DNA of 43,502 nt from Bacteroidales bacterium (lineage in GTDB: Bacteria > Bacteroidota > Bacteroidia > Bacteroidales > DTU049), in contig JAFGWG010000036.1 in assembly GCA_016937255.1 (NCBI GenBank), forward strand, positions 1 to 43,502, written 5' to 3'. The notes below the pieces were generated by a model, which worked only from the letters and a program-made list of their open reading frames with translations, made no database searches and was not told where the DNA came from. The stretch's first letter is position 1. Every line of letters begins with the position of its first letter. The position numbers and the translations under genes were made by a program. Positions 25,938-33,912 of this stretch are shown here, in pieces.

Positions 25938-27155
25938 TTACTTTTCATCAGATAATACAAAATTTACCGGCAGGGTAATTTCAACGGCAACCGCTTTACC
26001 GTCTTTTTCACCTGGCGTCCAGTCGGGCATCATTTTAACCACTCGTATGGCCTCGGCATCAAGCTCGGGATTTACCGATTGCTTTATGGAAACATCTTTA
26101 ATTTTTCCGTCTTTGTCAACAATGAAGTTTACAAATACTTTTCCCTGTATGCCATCTTCCTTGGCTTTTTCTGGGTATTTGACATTGTCTACAAAGAATT
26201 GACCCATCGCTTCCTGACCGCCGGGAAATTCAGGCATCTTGTCTACTTCATGGTAGACTTCTTCTATTTCTACAGTTTCTTGGCCATCTGTAGTTGTTTG
26301 GTCATTTTTTGCAGGACTGTGACTGCAGGCCATAATCCATACAGTAGCTAATGCTAATGGCAGCGTAAGGAGCCAACGTCGATTGCTAAATTGTTTTTTT
26401 GTGTTCATCATAATAATTCTGTTTTTAATGAAAGATTTGTTGAATTGGTTGACAGGTAATACTGTCGGATAACCCATACTTAGCGATAACAATATTTCTT
26501 GGTATTTTACTCGTTCAATTCCTTTATTGAGCACAGCTTGGTCGGCTTGGTATTCGTGTACTCTTTCCAATTCCTTTTTTAGAATCCAGTATGCCGGATT
26601 TATCCAGAAAAGAATTCCAGTAATGGAAATGAAAAGTCTGTCAATGGAGTGCATTAGTCTTGTATGTTCTTTTTCGTGTTCATGCACTTCAGTATGAATA
26701 AGGGTGTTATGAATAAAAATTATATTGAAAAATGAAAACACAGGCATCTCTTTATTCAATAATATTATTTCGTGCGACCCTTCTTTAAAGTGACTGTGAG
26801 TATGTCTTAGATAGAAAATCTTTCCAAGTCCAATGAGTATGCGCACTGCGAAAAATGCTGAAATAATCAAGTAATAGAAAAGTATGAGTGTTGAGCCTGG
26901 TATTTCATTGGCAGCTGTATTTGTCACAGTCTTGTTGGATACAATGACTTCATTGATAATATAGCCGGGCACTTCGCTAATACTGCCACTGCTTGTAAAC
27001 TGTAGTGCCGGAGAAACTATACTAATTATGAATGCCAGTAGAATAAAAACTCTGCTGTGATGGTGACTGGCTTTTTGCTTTAATAGTAGCTGATATATTA
27101 TCATGAAAATGAATAATACCAACGATGAGCGAAACAGATATTCTAAAATACTCAT
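25938..27155 (-). CDS. M56-family (BlaR1-like) metallopeptidase fused to a TonB C-terminal domain
   Basis: A 405-residue inner-membrane protein. Four predicted TM helices occur in the first 290 residues. A cytoplasmic zinc peptidase site, H160-E-K-E-H164, is followed by the third-ligand region EYQADQAVL (about 200). After the last TM helix (LLTLPLALATVWIMACS) a TonB C-terminal domain begins with PEFPGGQEAMGQFF and KYPEKAKEDGIQGKV and ends near LPVNFVLSDEK. BlaR1 proteins sense a ligand and cleave the BlaI repressor. Here the periplasmic sensor is replaced by a TonB-like domain, a layout common in Bacteroidota. Its ATG overlaps the blaI TGA (ATGA). The signal sensed is unknown. Confidence 0.9.
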   Translation of the reverse strand: MSILEYLFRSSLVLFIFMIIYQLLLKQKASHHHSRVFILLAFIISIVSPALQFTSSGSISEVPGYIINEVIVSNKTVTNTAANEIPGSTLILFYYLIISAFFAVRILIGLGKIFYLRHTHSHFKEGSHEIILLNKEMPVFSFFNIIFIHNTLIHTEVHEHEKEHTRLMHSIDRLFISITGILFWINPAYWILKKELERVHEYQADQAVLNKGIERVKYQEILLSLSMGYPTVLPVNQFNKSFIKNRIIMMNTKKQFSNRRWLLTLPLALATVWIMACSHSPAKNDQTTTDGQETVEIEEVYHEVDKMPEFPGGQEAMGQFFVDNVKYPEKAKEDGIQGKVFVNFIVDKDGKIKDVSIKQSVNPELDAEAIRVVKMMPDWTPGEKDGKAVAVEITLPVNFVLSDEK

Positions 27156-27532
27156 GATTTTTTCTTTTTTTGAATTTCTTTATTAATGAGATTCTGAAGC
27201 TCTTCAAGCTCTTCAAGGCTTAAATTTTCTTTCTTGCTGAAAAATGAGACCAGATTGCCGACTGAATTTGAAAAATACCTCCCAATCAGGTTCTTTGTGC
27301 ATTGTGCTGAGTATTCCTCTCGACTTATAAGTGGGAAATACCGATGCGTTTTCCCAAAGGATTCGTGAGAAACAAATCCCTTTTTTTCAAGAATTCTAAT
27401 AATGGTAGATACGGTAGTAATAGCTGGTTTTGGATCAGGCATTTTTTGAACAATGTCTTTTACAAAAGCTTGCTTGAGATTCCATAAGAAATCCATCACT
27501 TGTTCTTCTGCTTTAGTAAGTTCTTTTTCCAT
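27152..27532 (-). CDS. BlaI/MecI/CopY-family transcriptional repressor
   Basis: A 126-residue winged-helix repressor. The N-terminus LTKAEEQVMDFLWNLKQAFV and the recognition region ITTVSTIIRILEKKGFV are diagnostic of the family. HESFGKTHRYFPLIS forms the wing, and a helical dimerisation domain ends in a lysine tail. It is paired with the downstream M56 peptidase, which by analogy to BlaR1/BlaI would inactivate it by cleavage. Two inverted repeats and a -7 element lie 17-60 bases upstream, so autoregulation of this two-gene operon is likely. No beta-lactamase gene is present, so the regulon is unknown. Confidence 0.94.
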   Translation of the reverse strand: MEKELTKAEEQVMDFLWNLKQAFVKDIVQKMPDPKPAITTVSTIIRILEKKGFVSHESFGKTHRYFPLISREEYSAQCTKNLIGRYFSNSVGNLVSFFSKKENLSLEELEELQNLINKEIQKKKKS

Positions 27533-27548
27533 GCTTGCAATTTTGAAA

Positions 27549-27592
27549 CAAATATAACTAAGAAAATAGTTGAATAACTAACAATTTAGTTA
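27549..27592 (-). promoter_or_regulatory. Promoter -7 element and two phased operator candidates of the blaI operon
   Basis: On the minus strand TATATTTG (27549-27556) matches the -7 consensus. Two inverted repeats lie next to it: AACTA-N6-TAGTT (27556-27571) and TAACTAA-N4-TTAGTTA (27575-27592). Their centres are 20 bases apart, about two helical turns, so two repressor dimers could sit on the same face. Both share the half-site AACTA. Assignment to the BlaI protein is inference from position. Confidence 0.6.
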
Positions 27593-27742
27593 ACGGTAGT
27601 ATTTGTTCAGTTTTCGGTTACTTGTACTAAAAGTGAATTGAATTAACATGGTTTTTAAGTATTTTTTGCAAAAAGCATAATATTAATGTACTTTTTTTAA
27701 CTTTAGGCCGTTAATTCAATCAAAATTGAAGAGCGTAAATTT

Positions 27743-28831
27743 ATGAGAAAGCCATTATTTTTCCTTGCATTCATTTTTGTATCTCTAATACTATCAGCAC
27801 AAGCGCCTAAGTATTCGAATGAGTTTCTAGCCATAGGTACTGGAGCGAGAGCTTTGGGTATGTCGAATTCTGTAATTGCTTCAGTAGATGATGCGACTTC
27901 TGCATACTGGAATCCTGCTGGTTTAGTTTTAACTCCTTCTGCTAGGCAAGTTTTTCTAATGCATAGTGAGTATTTTGCAGGGATTGCTAAATATGATAAC
28001 ATTAGCATTGCCGCTGTAACGAGCGATAGTTCAGCTTTAGCTTTTACCTATATTCGTTTTGGAGTTGATAATATACCAAATACTACAGATCTAATTGATG
28101 CACAGGGTAATATAGACTATGATAGGATTACTACTTTTAGTGCAATAGACAATGCTTTTCTGATTTCTTATTCTCGCAAAATGCCTATTGATAATCTGCG
28201 TATTGGAGCCAATGTGAAAATTATTCGCCGCAGAATTGGGGATTTTGGAGGCAGTTGGGGCTTTGGAATTGATGCCGGAGCTCAATATCAACTGAAGAAA
28301 TGGAAATTTGGTGCAGTTTTGAGAGATGTTACATCAACTTTCAACGCATGGTCTTTCACCCTAGATGATCGTACCCGTGAAGTATTTACATTAACCGGGA
28401 ATGAAATTCCTGAAAATAGTTTAGAACTTACACTACCACGTTTATTGCTAGGAGGAGGCAGGTCCTTTCAAATCTCAAATTCGTTTAATATCTATCCTGA
28501 AGCAGGATTAGATGTAACATTTGATGGGAAAAGAAATACGCTGATTAAAACAAATTTCATGAGTATTGATCCACATTTTGGATTTGAGCTTGGGTATAAG
28601 AGTTTTGCCTTTTTACGTGGAGGAATTGGAAATATTCAGCAAGAAACCAATTTTGATGGAAATTTGGTAAGAACCATGCAGCCAAACTTGGGCGTGGGAA
28701 TAAATATCAAAAATGTTTTAACGATCGACTATGCTTTTACCGATATTGGAGATGTAAGTGTTGCTCTGTATTCTCATGTGTTTTCACTTAAGCTTAATAT
28801 CAACGGTAAAGAAACATCACCAAGTTTATAA
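27743..28831 (+). CDS. PorV/PorQ-family outer-membrane protein
   Basis: A 362-residue barrel protein of the PorV/PorQ family, whose characterised members act in type IX secretion as shuttle or attachment-complex subunits. The signal peptide (1-19, ending LSA-Q) is followed by the family hallmark FLAIGTGARALGMSNSVIA (about 28-46) and DDATSAYWNPAGL. The remainder is amphipathic strands with RIGANVKIIRRRI, FGIDAGAQY and a closing VFSLKLNING. It lies 5 bases before the C25 peptidase gene and is surely co-transcribed. PorV binds PorU in the attachment complex, so this pair probably forms an analogous two-protein unit. Whether it is PorV itself or a paralogue cannot be told by eye. Confidence 0.82.
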   Translation: MRKPLFFLAFIFVSLILSAQAPKYSNEFLAIGTGARALGMSNSVIASVDDATSAYWNPAGLVLTPSARQVFLMHSEYFAGIAKYDNISIAAVTSDSSALAFTYIRFGVDNIPNTTDLIDAQGNIDYDRITTFSAIDNAFLISYSRKMPIDNLRIGANVKIIRRRIGDFGGSWGFGIDAGAQYQLKKWKFGAVLRDVTSTFNAWSFTLDDRTREVFTLTGNEIPENSLELTLPRLLLGGGRSFQISNSFNIYPEAGLDVTFDGKRNTLIKTNFMSIDPHFGFELGYKSFAFLRGGIGNIQQETNFDGNLVRTMQPNLGVGINIKNVLTIDYAFTDIGDVSVALYSHVFSLKLNINGKETSPSL

Positions 28832-28836
28832 AGCCT

Positions 28837-31800
28837 ATGGAAAAGAAATATATCTCTTTAGTAGCAGTTTTGTTTTTGCTTTTCTCATTTTCTTTCGCTT
28901 TAAGAGCGCAAAACTATGGCAATGAGTGGATTAATTATAGTCAATCGTATTATAAAATAAGAGTTGGAAATGATGGTGTCTTTCGCATCAATTATTCAAC
29001 TTTGGTAAGCGAGGGTATTCCAATTACAACATTTGACCCTCGTCAGATTCAGATTTTTGCAAAGGGTGTAGAGCAATATATTTATGTAAAGGGTGAAAGT
29101 GACGGTGTTTTTAATTCAACTGATTATATAGAGTTTTATGCTGAGGCAAACGACGGGTGGTTTGACGAAAACATGTATAAAACCCCAGGAGATCACCCCA
29201 ATCCTGATTATAGTTTTTTTAATGATTCTGCGGCATATTTTTTGACATGGACAACTGGTATTTCCAATAGGCGATTAACAGTAGAGACCGACAAAAATTT
29301 CACAGGCTATACGAGCGAGACTTATGTGAATTATGTATCTAGACAGAATTATTTTAGTACGTACTATACTGGGAAAACAGATTCACAGGGTATTACGAGC
29401 TCTGAATATACAAACTGTGAGGGATGGTTTGACTCACCAATGACTATTAATACTCAATATCCTGGCGTTCCGCAATCTTTTAACAGGAGTGTTGAGAGCC
29501 CGTATGCGTATTTGTCTGGCCCACAAGCTCAGATAGAGATGCTCATTCTTGGAGAGTCCAATTACGATGGCTTGGCTCCAGATCATCATATGACTATTTC
29601 TTTTGCTGGGCAAAGTATAGATACCCTCTATGAAGGTTATGTTCCAATAAAAATCAAGCGTACAGTATCGCCCGCCTCATTGGGTAATCCTTCAACAGTA
29701 TTCAATTTTGTTCTTCCAAATGATCTTGGCTCAAATGCCGATCGAAATGGATTGAGTTATATTCAAATTAAGTATCCTAGAGAGTTGAATATGGCCAATA
29801 ATTCTACAATGCAATTTAGTGCTGGTGATGGAACCCTTTCTAAGGCTTATTTCAGTTTTACAGGGTTAAATGCTCCTGCTACTGATAGTTGTGTGGTATA
29901 TGATATTACTAACCACCGTAGAATACTAACAGTGCGATCAGGTTCAACTCTGAGTTTTTTGGTACCCAATAGTGCTTCGGAAAAGAACTTGTATATCACC
30001 TGCGAAAATAGAATTACACAAGTGGTTGATTTGTTTCCTGTAAATACTAGTTTAACTTCTTATGCAAAATTTGTCGATTATTCAGACGCTCAATATGATG
30101 ATGTTGATTATATTATTATTGCGCACAAAAGTATGTCGGCAAAAGTTGAAGAGTATGCCAATTATAGAAGAAGTACTGGCTATGAGGTTCTTGTAGCTGA
30201 TATTGATGTGCTTTATAATGAGTTTTCTTATGGAATAAGTAAGCATCCCTTGGCTATTCGCAATTTTGTTCGTTTTGGGCTAACTGAATTTGCTGATACC
30301 ATACATGGCCTTTTCCTGATTGGAAAATCGTATAAAGCTGGTGATAGCCCTTATAATTATCGTACAAATTCGACCTATAGTGCGCTTACATATGTCCCAT
30401 CTTATGGTATCCCTCCATCAGATATTATGCTTACGAGCGGAATTCTTGATTCATTATACCAACCAGCAATACCAACAGGGCGACTTGCTGCAAGAACATC
30501 AACAGAAATTTCTTGGTATCTTGAAAAAATGCAGGATTTTGAAGCAGCTCAAAATGCACCATATAATCCTGCCGATCCTTATGAGAAGCAGTGGATGAAA
30601 AAGGTGCTGCATTTTGCCGGGGGTTCAAGTTATGGTGAATCATTAATGCTTTTGGGCTATCTTAATCATTATAAAGATACTCTTGAAGGTCCTTATTTTG
30701 GAGGGTCTGTTTCTACTTTTACTAAAACATCAACTGCACCTATACAGCAAAACACCAGTGATAGTTTGAAGACTATTATCAATAATGGGGTTTCTATGTT
30801 GAATTTCTTCGGTCATGCTGCCGGTATTGGGTTCGATATTTCAATTGATAATCCTGATGAGTATAGTAATTACCAGAAATATCCTTTTTTGATTGCAAAC
30901 TCGTGTTTTGCTGGAGATTTATATGAGCCAACATACAGTTCATCTGAGGCATTTGTAATAATTGAGAAAAAAGGGATGATCGGCTACTTAGGTTCCATTA
31001 CAAAATCATACGCTTCATATTTGAATGTGTATAGTGAGGAACTTATTAGTAATATTGCTCGCAAAAGTTATAATGAGCCTATAGGGCTGATTATACAAAA
31101 AACTATTGCTGAAATTCAGTTTCCAGGAGATGCAAATATAAAAGATGTTTGCTATGAAATGACTTTGCATGGCGATCCTGTGCTTAGACTTGGTGGTTTC
31201 CCTTTGCCAGATTATGTTTTAACCCCTTCTGAGATATATTTTACACCAACTGAGATTTCAAGTGAATTGGATTCTTTTCAACTTTATGTTATTGCGAAAA
31301 ATGTTGGTAGCTCTGTCTTCGATTCTATTGTGTTAGAGGTTCAGCGAATATATCCGGATAATACTTCAGAAACATTTCAAAGATTGATTCCTTCACCCGG
31401 CTATGCCGATACGGTTATGTTTTCAATGTATGTTGATCCATTAAAAGGTATAGGCGTCAATCAGTTCTCAGTATGTCTCGATGCTTTTGATCAGGTTTCT
31501 GAAAGTAATGAATCCAATAATTGCGCTAATACTAGTTTGCTTATAAAATCGAGTGATATTATCCCGGTCTATCCGTACAATTATGCAGTAATTCCCGATA
31601 CTTTTCTGACTTTGATTGCAAGTACTTCGGGTATATTGGGCTCGTCTTCTGACTATATTTTCGAAATTGATACTACAGATAGCTTCGATAGCCCTTTTTT
31701 AGTGCAGAGTTCTGCAATTAGTCAACAAGGTGGTATTGTGGAGTGGGCTCTTCCTTTTTCTATGCTTAATTTAGGCGATTCTGCGGTGTATTTCTGGAGG

Positions 31801-33912
31801 GTTTCTATTAATGGAAGCGGAAACTGGAGAGAAAGTTCATTCCAGTATATAACCAATAAAAGAGGTTGGGGACAAGCGCATTTCTTTCAGTTGAAGAACG
31901 ATGAATACGAATACGTAACATACAATAAACCTGCGCGAATACTTGAGTTTGTAAACAATATTGTTACTATTTCTGCACAAACCGGGTATTATCCGTTTAT
32001 TCAATGGGCAGAAGAATGGTATAAAATTGATAACGCCATAAAAGGTCAATGGTCTTGTACCAGCGATATTGGTAATGGAATGAAATTCGCAGTTTTCGAT
32101 ACGGTTAGTATTACACCTTGGATGAATACCGACCCCAATAATGATGGGTTGGGTCCTTATGATGCACTCAATTGCAGAAACTACGATTATTACGATTTCG
32201 ATTTTTATACCACCGATACCATGTGGATGAATCGTATGGTGAACTTTATTAATGCAGTGCCCAATGGGTATTATGTTCTTGCATTTAGCCATCGAAATCA
32301 TAATGCTGAAAACTATCCCGAAGCTTTATATCAGGCTTTTGAAAGTATTGGCTCAAATCTGATTCGTACCATAGTCAATAACCGACCGTATATTATCTTT
32401 GGAAGAAAAGGATCTCCCGGTCTTGCTACAGAAAGTGTTGGTGCTGCTACAACTAGTATTATTAGTGAGGCTTTTCCTATCACTACCAACTGGAATCAGG
32501 GTTATGTTGAGTCTACTACCATAGGGCCAGCCTCAGAGTGGAATTCATTGCACTGGCGAGTCAGTAGCTTTGAACCCGGTTTGTGGACAGATACCGTACG
32601 TCTTTGTGTTTTAGGTATAAAAATAGATGGCAGTATTGATACAGTCATCAATAATTTGCCTCCCGTACAGGATTCGCTTGATATTCTTAACCTTTCTTCC
32701 CGAATTGATGCTTCTGTTTATCCATATTTGCGTTTGCATCTAAAGGTTCAGGACGATAGTTTACTTACTAGTGCTCAGCTTGACAGGTGGCATGTTTTGT
32801 ATGAACCGGTTCCTGAAACAGCGATTGACCCGATATCATTTTATGAATTTTATAGTGACACTGTTCAGGAAGGCGAAATAATATCTCTGGCAATTGCAAC
32901 TCGAAATATCGGAGCGGTTGATTTTCCGGATAGCTTATTGGTTTCATATTGGCTTATCGATCGTGATAGAAATATCCATTCCTTGCTTACGCATAGAACC
33001 AAAATGCATCCGGTTGGCGATATCTTAATCGATTCTGTATCATTCAATACCACAAACTTCTATGGAAATAATAGTCTTTGGGTTGAATTTAATCCGGTAT
33101 ACAGCGGAACAGGGCAGTACGATCAATTGGAGCAGTATCACTTTAATAATATTGGGGAAATTAAATTTTATGTTGCGCAAGATAAGATTAATCCAATGTT
33201 AGACGTAACTTTTGATGGAGTACATATTCTCGATGGAGATATTGTGAGTGCAAAACCCACTATTCAAATGATGCTTAAAGACGAGAATAAGTGGTTGCTA
33301 ATGGATGATACTTCTGCATTTAGAGTTTATCTGCTTAGACCTGGTGCTTCGGACTTAGAAAGAATATATTTTTATGAGAATATGATGGAAAATATGATAT
33401 TCTATCCTGCATCTACTTCACAAAATAATACTTGCCGAATTGAATATTCCGGCGATTTCCCGGTTGATGGCACTTATACGCTTATGGTTCAGGCACGCGA
33501 TAAAAGTGATAATGAAAGTGGTAGTATCGATTATCAGATCAATTTTGAAGTGATGAATACTCCTGCTATCACTGATATTCTCAATTGGCCAAATCCTTTC
33601 AGTACCCGAACGCATTTTGTGTTTACCCTTACCGGTTCGGAAGTGCCCGAATATATGATGATTCAAATTATGACTATTACAGGCCGCATAGTTCGCGAAA
33701 TTGATAAATCTGAACTAGGACCCATTCATATTGGAAGAAATATTACTGAATACGCTTGGGATGGTCGCGATGAATATGGAGATCAGTTAGCCAATGGTGT
33801 CTATTTGTATCGTGTAGTAGTGAAACTCAATGGTGCAGTTATGGATAAGATTGAAACACCTGCAGGACAATACTTTACCAAGGAATTTGGTAAAATGGTA
33901 TTGATGAGGTAA
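28837..33912 (+). CDS. C25-family cysteine peptidase, probable T9SS sortase PorU2
   Basis: A 1691-residue surface protein. Signal peptide 1-24; N-terminal beta domains to about 420; then a gingipain-type C25 domain (about 420-785). Its catalytic pair is H660 in NFFGHAAG and C690 in NSCFAGD, and it closes with the family signature LHGDPVLRLGG. A CARDB-like domain (about 790-905, VIAKNVGSSVFDS) and further beta domains follow. The C-terminus (about 1585-1691) is FlgD-like, WPNPFSTRTHF to YAWDGRDEYGDQLANGVY, as in T9SS-exported proteins. Typical PorU is about 1100-1300 residues, so this longer form fits the PorU2 group. It may process T9SS cargo or be a cargo itself; the PorV-like gene immediately upstream favours a sortase role. 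Confidence 0.85.
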   Translation: MEKKYISLVAVLFLLFSFSFALRAQNYGNEWINYSQSYYKIRVGNDGVFRINYSTLVSEGIPITTFDPRQIQIFAKGVEQYIYVKGESDGVFNSTDYIEFYAEANDGWFDENMYKTPGDHPNPDYSFFNDSAAYFLTWTTGISNRRLTVETDKNFTGYTSETYVNYVSRQNYFSTYYTGKTDSQGITSSEYTNCEGWFDSPMTINTQYPGVPQSFNRSVESPYAYLSGPQAQIEMLILGESNYDGLAPDHHMTISFAGQSIDTLYEGYVPIKIKRTVSPASLGNPSTVFNFVLPNDLGSNADRNGLSYIQIKYPRELNMANNSTMQFSAGDGTLSKAYFSFTGLNAPATDSCVVYDITNHRRILTVRSGSTLSFLVPNSASEKNLYITCENRITQVVDLFPVNTSLTSYAKFVDYSDAQYDDVDYIIIAHKSMSAKVEEYANYRRSTGYEVLVADIDVLYNEFSYGISKHPLAIRNFVRFGLTEFADTIHGLFLIGKSYKAGDSPYNYRTNSTYSALTYVPSYGIPPSDIMLTSGILDSLYQPAIPTGRLAARTSTEISWYLEKMQDFEAAQNAPYNPADPYEKQWMKKVLHFAGGSSYGESLMLLGYLNHYKDTLEGPYFGGSVSTFTKTSTAPIQQNTSDSLKTIINNGVSMLNFFGHAAGIGFDISIDNPDEYSNYQKYPFLIANSCFAGDLYEPTYSSSEAFVIIEKKGMIGYLGSITKSYASYLNVYSEELISNIARKSYNEPIGLIIQKTIAEIQFPGDANIKDVCYEMTLHGDPVLRLGGFPLPDYVLTPSEIYFTPTEISSELDSFQLYVIAKNVGSSVFDSIVLEVQRIYPDNTSETFQRLIPSPGYADTVMFSMYVDPLKGIGVNQFSVCLDAFDQVSESNESNNCANTSLLIKSSDIIPVYPYNYAVIPDTFLTLIASTSGILGSSSDYIFEIDTTDSFDSPFLVQSSAISQQGGIVEWALPFSMLNLGDSAVYFWRVSINGSGNWRESSFQYITNKRGWGQAHFFQLKNDEYEYVTYNKPARILEFVNNIVTISAQTGYYPFIQWAEEWYKIDNAIKGQWSCTSDIGNGMKFAVFDTVSITPWMNTDPNNDGLGPYDALNCRNYDYYDFDFYTTDTMWMNRMVNFINAVPNGYYVLAFSHRNHNAENYPEALYQAFESIGSNLIRTIVNNRPYIIFGRKGSPGLATESVGAATTSIISEAFPITTNWNQGYVESTTIGPASEWNSLHWRVSSFEPGLWTDTVRLCVLGIKIDGSIDTVINNLPPVQDSLDILNLSSRIDASVYPYLRLHLKVQDDSLLTSAQLDRWHVLYEPVPETAIDPISFYEFYSDTVQEGEIISLAIATRNIGAVDFPDSLLVSYWLIDRDRNIHSLLTHRTKMHPVGDILIDSVSFNTTNFYGNNSLWVEFNPVYSGTGQYDQLEQYHFNNIGEIKFYVAQDKINPMLDVTFDGVHILDGDIVSAKPTIQMMLKDENKWLLMDDTSAFRVYLLRPGASDLERIYFYENMMENMIFYPASTSQNNTCRIEYSGDFPVDGTYTLMVQARDKSDNESGSIDYQINFEVMNTPAITDILNWPNPFSTRTHFVFTLTGSEVPEYMMIQIMTITGRIVREIDKSELGPIHIGRNITEYAWDGRDEYGDQLANGVYLYRVVVKLNGAVMDKIETPAGQYFTKEFGKMVLMR

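Follow-up and report, generated by a model that had tools for sequence, protein, structure and literature searches.

A paired AACTA palindrome as the predicted, lineage-specific operator of a BlaI-family repressor and its M56 partner in Bacteroidota

In a genome of the Bacteroidales, two copies of the inverted repeat AACTA-N6-TAGTT stand side by side at the promoter of a gene for a BlaI-family repressor, and the evidence, read jointly, makes it very probable that they form an autoregulatory operator of the adjacent BlaI protein, whose repression would be relieved by a partner metalloprotease of the M56 family. This reading builds on computed properties, namely the presence, rarity and conservation of the dyads, the way in which they go together with BlaI genes and with a promoter, and the make-up of the M56 protein. 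A preliminary description of the same DNA had proposed a paired, lineage-specific BlaI operator, and the comparison of genomes supports the prediction of such an element. BlaI/M56 pairs recur in Bacteroidota yet are named after staphylococcal beta-lactam resistance (for background on BlaR1 and BlaI, see the available part of PMC7593790); with a defined operator, their regulons become readable from sequence, and the targets predicted elsewhere point from beta-lactams towards TonB systems and DUF1573 proteins. No description of an AACTA operator or regulon was found in the open-licence literature, and the accessible portions of PMC12578637, PMC12204202 and PMC12596196 concern no BlaI protein.

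The window, that is, the whole stretch of DNA that was analyzed (43,502 nucleotides), carries the following elements around this promoter:

27576-27591, minus strand: distal dyad AACTA-N6-TAGTT, AACTAACAATTTAGTT, predicted BlaI-dimer site 1
27556-27571, minus strand: proximal dyad AACTA-N6-TAGTT, AACTAAGAAAATAGTT, predicted BlaI-dimer site 2
27575-27592: extended perfect palindrome TAACTAA-N4-TTAGTTA, TAACTAACAATTTAGTTA, which contains the distal dyad
27549-27556, minus strand: -7 element TATATTTG, of consensus TAnnTTTG, which has one base in common with the proximal dyad
27152-27532, minus strand: blaI, encoding a 126-aa winged-helix repressor (PF03965), with its start codon at 27532
25938-27155, minus strand: gene for a BlaR1-like M56 metalloprotease of 405 aa with a periplasmic TonB C-terminal domain
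27743-33912, plus strand: divergent PorV2-type gene and peptidase C25 gene

A reading in the direction of blaI encounters first the distal dyad, then the linker ATTC, the proximal dyad and the -7 element, with TATATTTG beginning on the final base of the proximal dyad. The coordinates of the two dyads upstream of blaI, with centers 20 bp apart, are confirmed as first described, and the perfect -7 element that had been reported to adjoin them shares one base with the proximal copy; the accompanying phrase "two helical turns" stands as far as the 20-bp spacing is concerned, which amounts to about 1.9 turns and not to exactly two. The blaI and M56 genes overlap by ATGA and constitute a two-gene operon, and the intergenic region that separates blaI from the divergent genes spans 27533-27742 (210 bp). 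The repressor scores 112.8 bits against PF03965, for which the curated cut-off is 22.6, and is the sole match over the cut-off in its genome, a second match falling below it. The PorV2-type gene on the divergent side encodes a putative part of a type IX secretion system.

The exact dyad occurs twice in the window against a mean of 0.06 in 400 dinucleotide shuffles of the window; two or more exact dyads arose in 3 of the 400 shuffles, and a 20-bp pair in none. When the 210-bp intergenic region was shuffled 20,000 times, a 5-N6-5 dyad of any sequence, repeated at 20 bp, arose in 2 cases. Relaxed patterns did not rise above chance in the window, where the 18-bp palindrome with up to three mismatches gave three matches (4.92 expected) and the dyad with up to one mismatch gave two (1.74 expected). 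The signal in the window resides in the exact copies and in their pairing, and the observation of the dyads is confirmed as correct and well beyond chance. Throughout the genome to which the window belongs (3.85 Mb in 254 contigs, 96% complete), exactly two exact dyads are present, both at blaI, while the reversed pattern occurs 26 times, a crude control, since coding DNA is poor in TAG and CTA. The genome scan for an AACTA-dyad regulon that had been suggested at the outset was run, and recovered the blaI operator but no further targets: the pair with up to three mismatches was found at the blaI site only (reversed control: one place), and neither this mismatch-tolerant pair scan nor a scan for a dyad with a -7 element detected a second target in this genome. 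Further candidates from the latter scan (single dyad and -7 element, up to two mismatches) were rejected, the search having returned 11 places, blaI included, against 16 for the reversed control.

Conservation of the dyads in the promoters of related genes, the lack of which had been named in advance as grounds for abandoning the proposal, emerges strongly both when the search starts from BlaI proteins and when it starts from the pattern. A BlaI match was found in 34 of 59 genomes (the window's own and those surrounding it), at 51 places, and DNA was obtained around the best-matching 29 of the 50 BlaI places in relatives of the same order. Within this order, an exact dyad lies at most 250 bp upstream of 23 of 29 BlaI genes and the 20-bp pair upstream of 13 of the 29, against a background of one dyad in 81,874 bp of the same flanking DNA; the 29-gene set leaves out L013, whose upstream sequence comprises 28 bases, and includes a second, divergent BlaI-like gene from L017. 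In a second set (L065-L094), the dyad precedes 26 of 30 BlaI genes, an enriched proportion, since the genomes of this set had been selected on the presence of the pair. The six genes of the first set with no exact N6 dyad upstream are those of L032, L034, L028 and L029 and the two of L017. At L032 and L034, AACTA-N7-TAGTT (17 bp) takes the place of the N6 form, and L028 carries TACTACATTTATAGTA; upstream of the L029 gene and of both L017 genes, neither the N6 form nor the N7 or TACTACATTTATAGTA form was found. At L017, upstream of position 1501, the two BlaI-like genes face one another across a shared intergenic region devoid of AACTA dyads, which contains two ACGAA-N4-TTCGT palindromes; a switched operator specificity is possible there. 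At L121 and L161, a BlaI gene with no dyad of its own stands, as judged by eye, behind another long coding frame, an arrangement that suggests BlaI-M56 cassettes in tandem, controlled by a single operator.

When the pattern itself is taken as the starting point, the exact pair turns up in 31 (own genome included) out of 296 genomes sampled across the phylum, and these fall as 31 of 73 in the window's class (own genome included) and 0 of 223 in the other classes of the same phylum, which bears out the idea of a lineage-specific operator. Among 395 genomes drawn over the window's class, the pair is found in 53, again including the window's own, and the reversed control is zero throughout both the phylum and the class tables. 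In the 52 class genomes other than the window's own, 51 of 55 pair sites face a BlaI gene within 250 bp. A strong PF03965 match is present in all 52 of these genomes, whereas among 70 class genomes that lack the pair 6 have one (13 if the family cut-off is applied, 17 at E 0.001), an association with Fisher probabilities of 4e-28 (using 6/70) and 6e-20 (using 17/70) that refers to 70 pair-less genomes taken from the top of the list and not phylogenetically matched to the pair-bearing ones. The coupling of pair and BlaI bears directly on another explanation for the dyads, which lie in an intergenic region shared with divergent genes: they might serve a different regulator, for example of the PorV2 and C25-peptidase genes, the nearness of blaI being incidental. 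This appears quite improbable, as the pair tracks the presence of BlaI at the genome level and holds, over 128 loci, a mostly fixed position relative to a -7 element that faces BlaI; in the window, moreover, there is overlap between the proximal dyad and the blaI -7 element, and about 150 bp lie between the dyads and the divergent start codon.

The association with BlaI also holds on a broader scale. A scan of a collection of 84,980 species genomes yielded at least 119 stretches with the pair, and in 102 of the 119 among the matches listed a BlaI gene is faced within 400 bp. Judged by their titles, all 119 listed stretches come from Bacteroidota as GTDB defines the phylum; two of them are Chlorobiota records and one is an Ignavibacteriae record. 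The pair with a -7 element, allowing up to two mismatches, occurs in 52 of 248 genomes of another order and in 3 of 22 of a third, with none for the control. On the DNA retrieved with this second pattern, BlaI is faced at 49 sites but not at 23 others, which are spread over 22 loci; L216 and L217 represent one site, L226 and L232 repeat L037 and L038, L273 and L274 carry the same DNA as L125 and L114, and L227 is counted among the non-BlaI cases solely on account of its better orientation, which is the one that leads away from BlaI. Five pairs were not counted as BlaI promoters: that of L042, a near-perfect palindrome with no -7 element facing a gene, and those of L095, L155, L178 and L212, from one Alistipes metagenome-assembled genome (MAG), which likewise have no -7 element facing a gene. 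L042 lies between genes that resemble, by eye, those of HU and RNase G. The Alistipes MAG, TD116_bin79, holds the 36-bp pair at least four times, at L095 and L178 as a perfect 36-bp palindrome, and one of its copies precedes a GT28 glycosyltransferase gene; these palindromic pairs are perhaps a separate repeat family.

The housekeeping promoters of Bacteroidota have the consensus TAnnTTTG at -7 and TTG at -33, and both elements can be placed with respect to the dyads in a profile of 128 BlaI-facing pairs, the window's included. The base that follows the distal dyad is G in 58% of the 128, which yields TTG, and one base past the proximal dyad the profile reads TAnnTTTG, with T 89%, A 88%, then, after the two free positions, T 86%, T 90%, T 79% and G 64%. 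A perfect TAnnTTTG is found in 86 of the 128 loci; it starts at +1 in 68 and at -1 in 7. Of these 86 loci, 74 also have a TTG on its upstream side at a distance of 18-20 bp, and in 53 the distance is exactly 20 bp. The proximal dyad consequently occupies, in most of the 128 loci, the spacer that separates -33 from -7, an arrangement that would account for the constant 20-bp distance within the pair. The window represents a slightly shifted case, in which a perfect TAnnTTTG begins at -1 and TTA takes the place of the expected TTG at a distance of 18 bp; TTG itself was looked for 17-21 bp upstream of the -7 element and was absent, the nearest being at 25 bp.

The same profile speaks to a further alternative, namely that the palindromes act as RNA structures or terminators and not as operators in DNA. 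Inverted repeats could fold in this manner, and some pairs elsewhere (L095 and L178) are perfect palindromes over all 36 bp; the six inner bases of the dyads, however, vary freely and are A/T-rich, while the outer bases recur, and the dyads of the window would lie outside the blaI transcript because they are situated at and upstream of the -7 element. A terminator scan of 27400-27800 found none, a result of little weight since the expected number was likewise 0.0. Taken together, these points render an RNA function extremely improbable.

The partner gene accompanies the repressor with great regularity. The 184 BlaI genes collected comprise 164 with a long downstream ORF, 14 cut by a contig or locus end and 6 without such an ORF, and HEXXH is present in the downstream ORF of 155 of the 164. 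In an alignment of the window protein with 50 partners picked from complete HEXXH-bearing downstream ORFs, H160, E161 and H164 (of HEXXH), E201, D205 and R246 are invariant in 51 of 51. M56 and TonB_C are the only Pfam domains recognized in the window protein, and the Pfam tally for the 51 aligned proteins gives M56 in 51, TonB_C in 36 and the TonB-receptor Plug domain in 5; a penicillin-binding domain was found neither in the window protein nor in this tally. Single cases of ExbD, Amidase_3 and peptidase M23 periplasmic parts were also observed, and the variety of these parts is suggestive of interchangeable envelope sensors. In the predicted structure of the window protein (mean pLDDT 88), residues 3-241 match BlaR1 8ext (Z 15.3, rmsd 3.3, 204 aligned) and residues 305-403 match the TonB C-terminal domain 6i97_D (Z 9.8, rmsd 1.8, 89 aligned). 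According to this model, the protein is a BlaR1 in which a TonB domain replaces the penicillin sensor, and its fold match predicts an inner-membrane location.

From these elements we infer binding, its cooperativity, the cleavage event and the signal. Each AACTA-N6-TAGTT site would be bound by one BlaI dimer, and the two sites would lie on nearly the same face of the DNA and cover the promoter, so that RNA polymerase would be shut out and the blaI-M56 operon kept low. The BlaR1-like M56 partner would span the inner membrane, and engagement of its periplasmic TonB-type domain would lead it to cleave BlaI near F97|F98, thus relieving repression. The expected position of the cut derives from the staphylococcal protein, whose site N101|F102 (PMC9834060, in the part available) aligns with F97|F98 of the window BlaI. 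The P1' residue, at position 98, is F in 67% of 229 BlaI proteins, the remainder having L, M or I; at P1, the window protein has F and not the N of staphylococcal BlaI. This last difference would be compatible with true BlaI operators from which repression is lifted by a cytoplasmic ligand or another protease instead of by M56 cleavage, and a peptidoglycan-fragment coactivator has been proposed for the BlaI of Bacillus licheniformis, according to the accessible text of PMC3305447. The recurrence of a HEXXH ORF after BlaI, together with further catalytic residues that do not vary among the aligned partners, makes such a route rather unlikely, and relief by the M56 partner remains the preferred reading.

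In other genomes, the pair is also found before genes other than blaI, which is suggestive of wider regulons that would include tonB, exbD and DUF1573 genes. Seventeen of the 119 matches listed have no nearby BlaI; four are those of the Alistipes MAG, two are cut by locus edges and thus uninformative (L154 and L168), and 11 remain. Among the latter, the pair precedes tonB at L103, L173 (where tonB is followed by blaI) and L144, where truncation of the gene at the locus end leaves the Pfam match marginally below the cut-off; exbD at L159; a DUF1573 gene at L125; an aspartyl-protease gene, and then blaI, at L141; a gene with a sub-threshold Porph_ging match at L149; a carboxypeptidase-regulatory-like gene at L213; a DUF4440/SnoaL-like gene at L210; and genes with no Pfam match at L104 and L114. 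A perfect -7 element is in its canonical place at L103, L125, L141, L144, L159 and L210; that of L149 is imperfect, that of L114 is perfect and comes after a third, imperfect dyad, and L104, L173 and L213 have none.

DUF1573 genes, as identified with Pfam, follow the pair in 11 of the 22 non-BlaI second-pattern loci. In 12 genomes of one family, chosen for having non-BlaI sites, they are present at 10 of 16 non-BlaI loci (binomial 4e-21 if 15 of 4000 genes are DUF1573), a strong enrichment because each of these genomes holds only 6-15 DUF1573 matches. The operator pair stands before a DUF1573 gene, in one family of the second order, at L259, L263, L267, L269, L271, L273, L275, L277, L282 and L284. 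These targets evoke an envelope-sensing switch in many Bacteroidota, in which a BlaI with a remodeled recognition helix would act on AACTA pairs, a TonB- or Plug-type M56 protein would read TonB-dependent transporters, and the regulons would include tonB, exbD and DUF1573 genes. We offer it as a tentative possibility; if true, it would amount to a feedback control of the delivery of energy to the outer membrane. In Porphyromonas gingivalis, a BlaI-family gene with an M56 neighbor is under-expressed in excess hemin (LFC -1.74; available part of PMC10470040), a hint that fits a link to TonB-dependent uptake and proves nothing. The raised expression of a BlaI-family gene in a Riemerella LPS mutant, reported in the portion of PMC5294843 at hand, was not used as evidence.

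The half-site, numbered from the center of the dyad as A-8 A-7 C-6 T-5 A-4, can be set in register with the operators of the two classical systems. The staphylococcal mec/bla operator, [A/G]NATTACA[A/T]NTGTA[A/G][T/G]NT, reads A-7 T-6 T-5 A-4 C-3 A-2 (PMC5341023, available part), and has A(-7), T(-5) and A(-4) in common with the AACTA half-site. The consensus of CopR/CopY operators, RNYKACANNYGTMRNY, is R-8 N-7 Y-6 K-5 A-4 C-3 A-2 in the accessible part of PMC7253601; the 16-bp frame is the same, and AACTA fits R-N-Y-K-A exactly. These aligned positions therefore indicate that the outer part and the TA agree in register with classical sites. The inner CA at -3 and -2 of the mec/bla and CopY operators is not retained here: the TACA-N2-TGTA core is in neither dyad of the window, and no CA consensus emerges at these positions across the 128 loci, in which, against an A/T-rich background, C at -3 is seen in 8% of distal and 7% of proximal left half-sites, and A at -2 in 62% and 81%, respectively. 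In this profile the search pattern itself dictates AAC at -8 to -6, while the protein-first set shows the outer half-site bases independently of the pattern in 23 of 29 BlaI genes. The statement that AACTA differs from the TACA/TGTA core, made in the preliminary description, is consequently right for the absent inner CA, but not for the TA and the outer bases, which are kept in register.

In MecI, K43 and R46 touch bases. The window BlaI has T and S at these positions, and among 231 BlaI proteins, mostly from loci chosen by the pattern, the K43 position is N in 92% and the R46 position is S or A in 84% and 16%. Covariation of the recognition helix with the operator within Bacteroidota was sought and rejected, residues 37 and 42 failing to separate operator types among 228 BlaI genes; the link between helix and operator is drawn from the Gram-positive comparison only, because S or A at residue 42 does not separate operator types. 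The repressor belongs to the same family as staphylococcal BlaI and MecI (MecI 1okr, E 1.5e-16), and a palindromic operator in its own promoter is common to both systems, while the two-gene operon of the window, unlike the staphylococcal bla/mec systems, is without a beta-lactamase gene. The family is also that of CopR/CopY, and the cop promoters of pneumococcus and Enterococcus hirae likewise carry two sites, as described in the available text of PMC7253601; in contrast to CopY, the 126-aa window protein contains no Cys-X-Cys motif (as defined in that same text), and a copper exporter is absent from the window operon.

On the membrane side, H160, H164, E201 and D205 of the window M56 protein are equal in spacing to H201, H205, E242 and D246 of Staphylococcus aureus BlaR1, as listed in the accessible part of PMC9834060. 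Residues 305-403 match the C-terminal domains of TonB in the FoxA:TonB (6i97) and BtuB:TonB (2gsk) structures, with Z 9.8 and 7.8. Whereas TonB carries this domain on a single helix, here it is joined to a protease of the BlaR1 type for which several membrane helices are predicted. In comparison with BlaR1 and MecR1, the protease fold and the catalytic spacing are thus the same, and the sensor of the window protein would be a TonB C-terminal domain.
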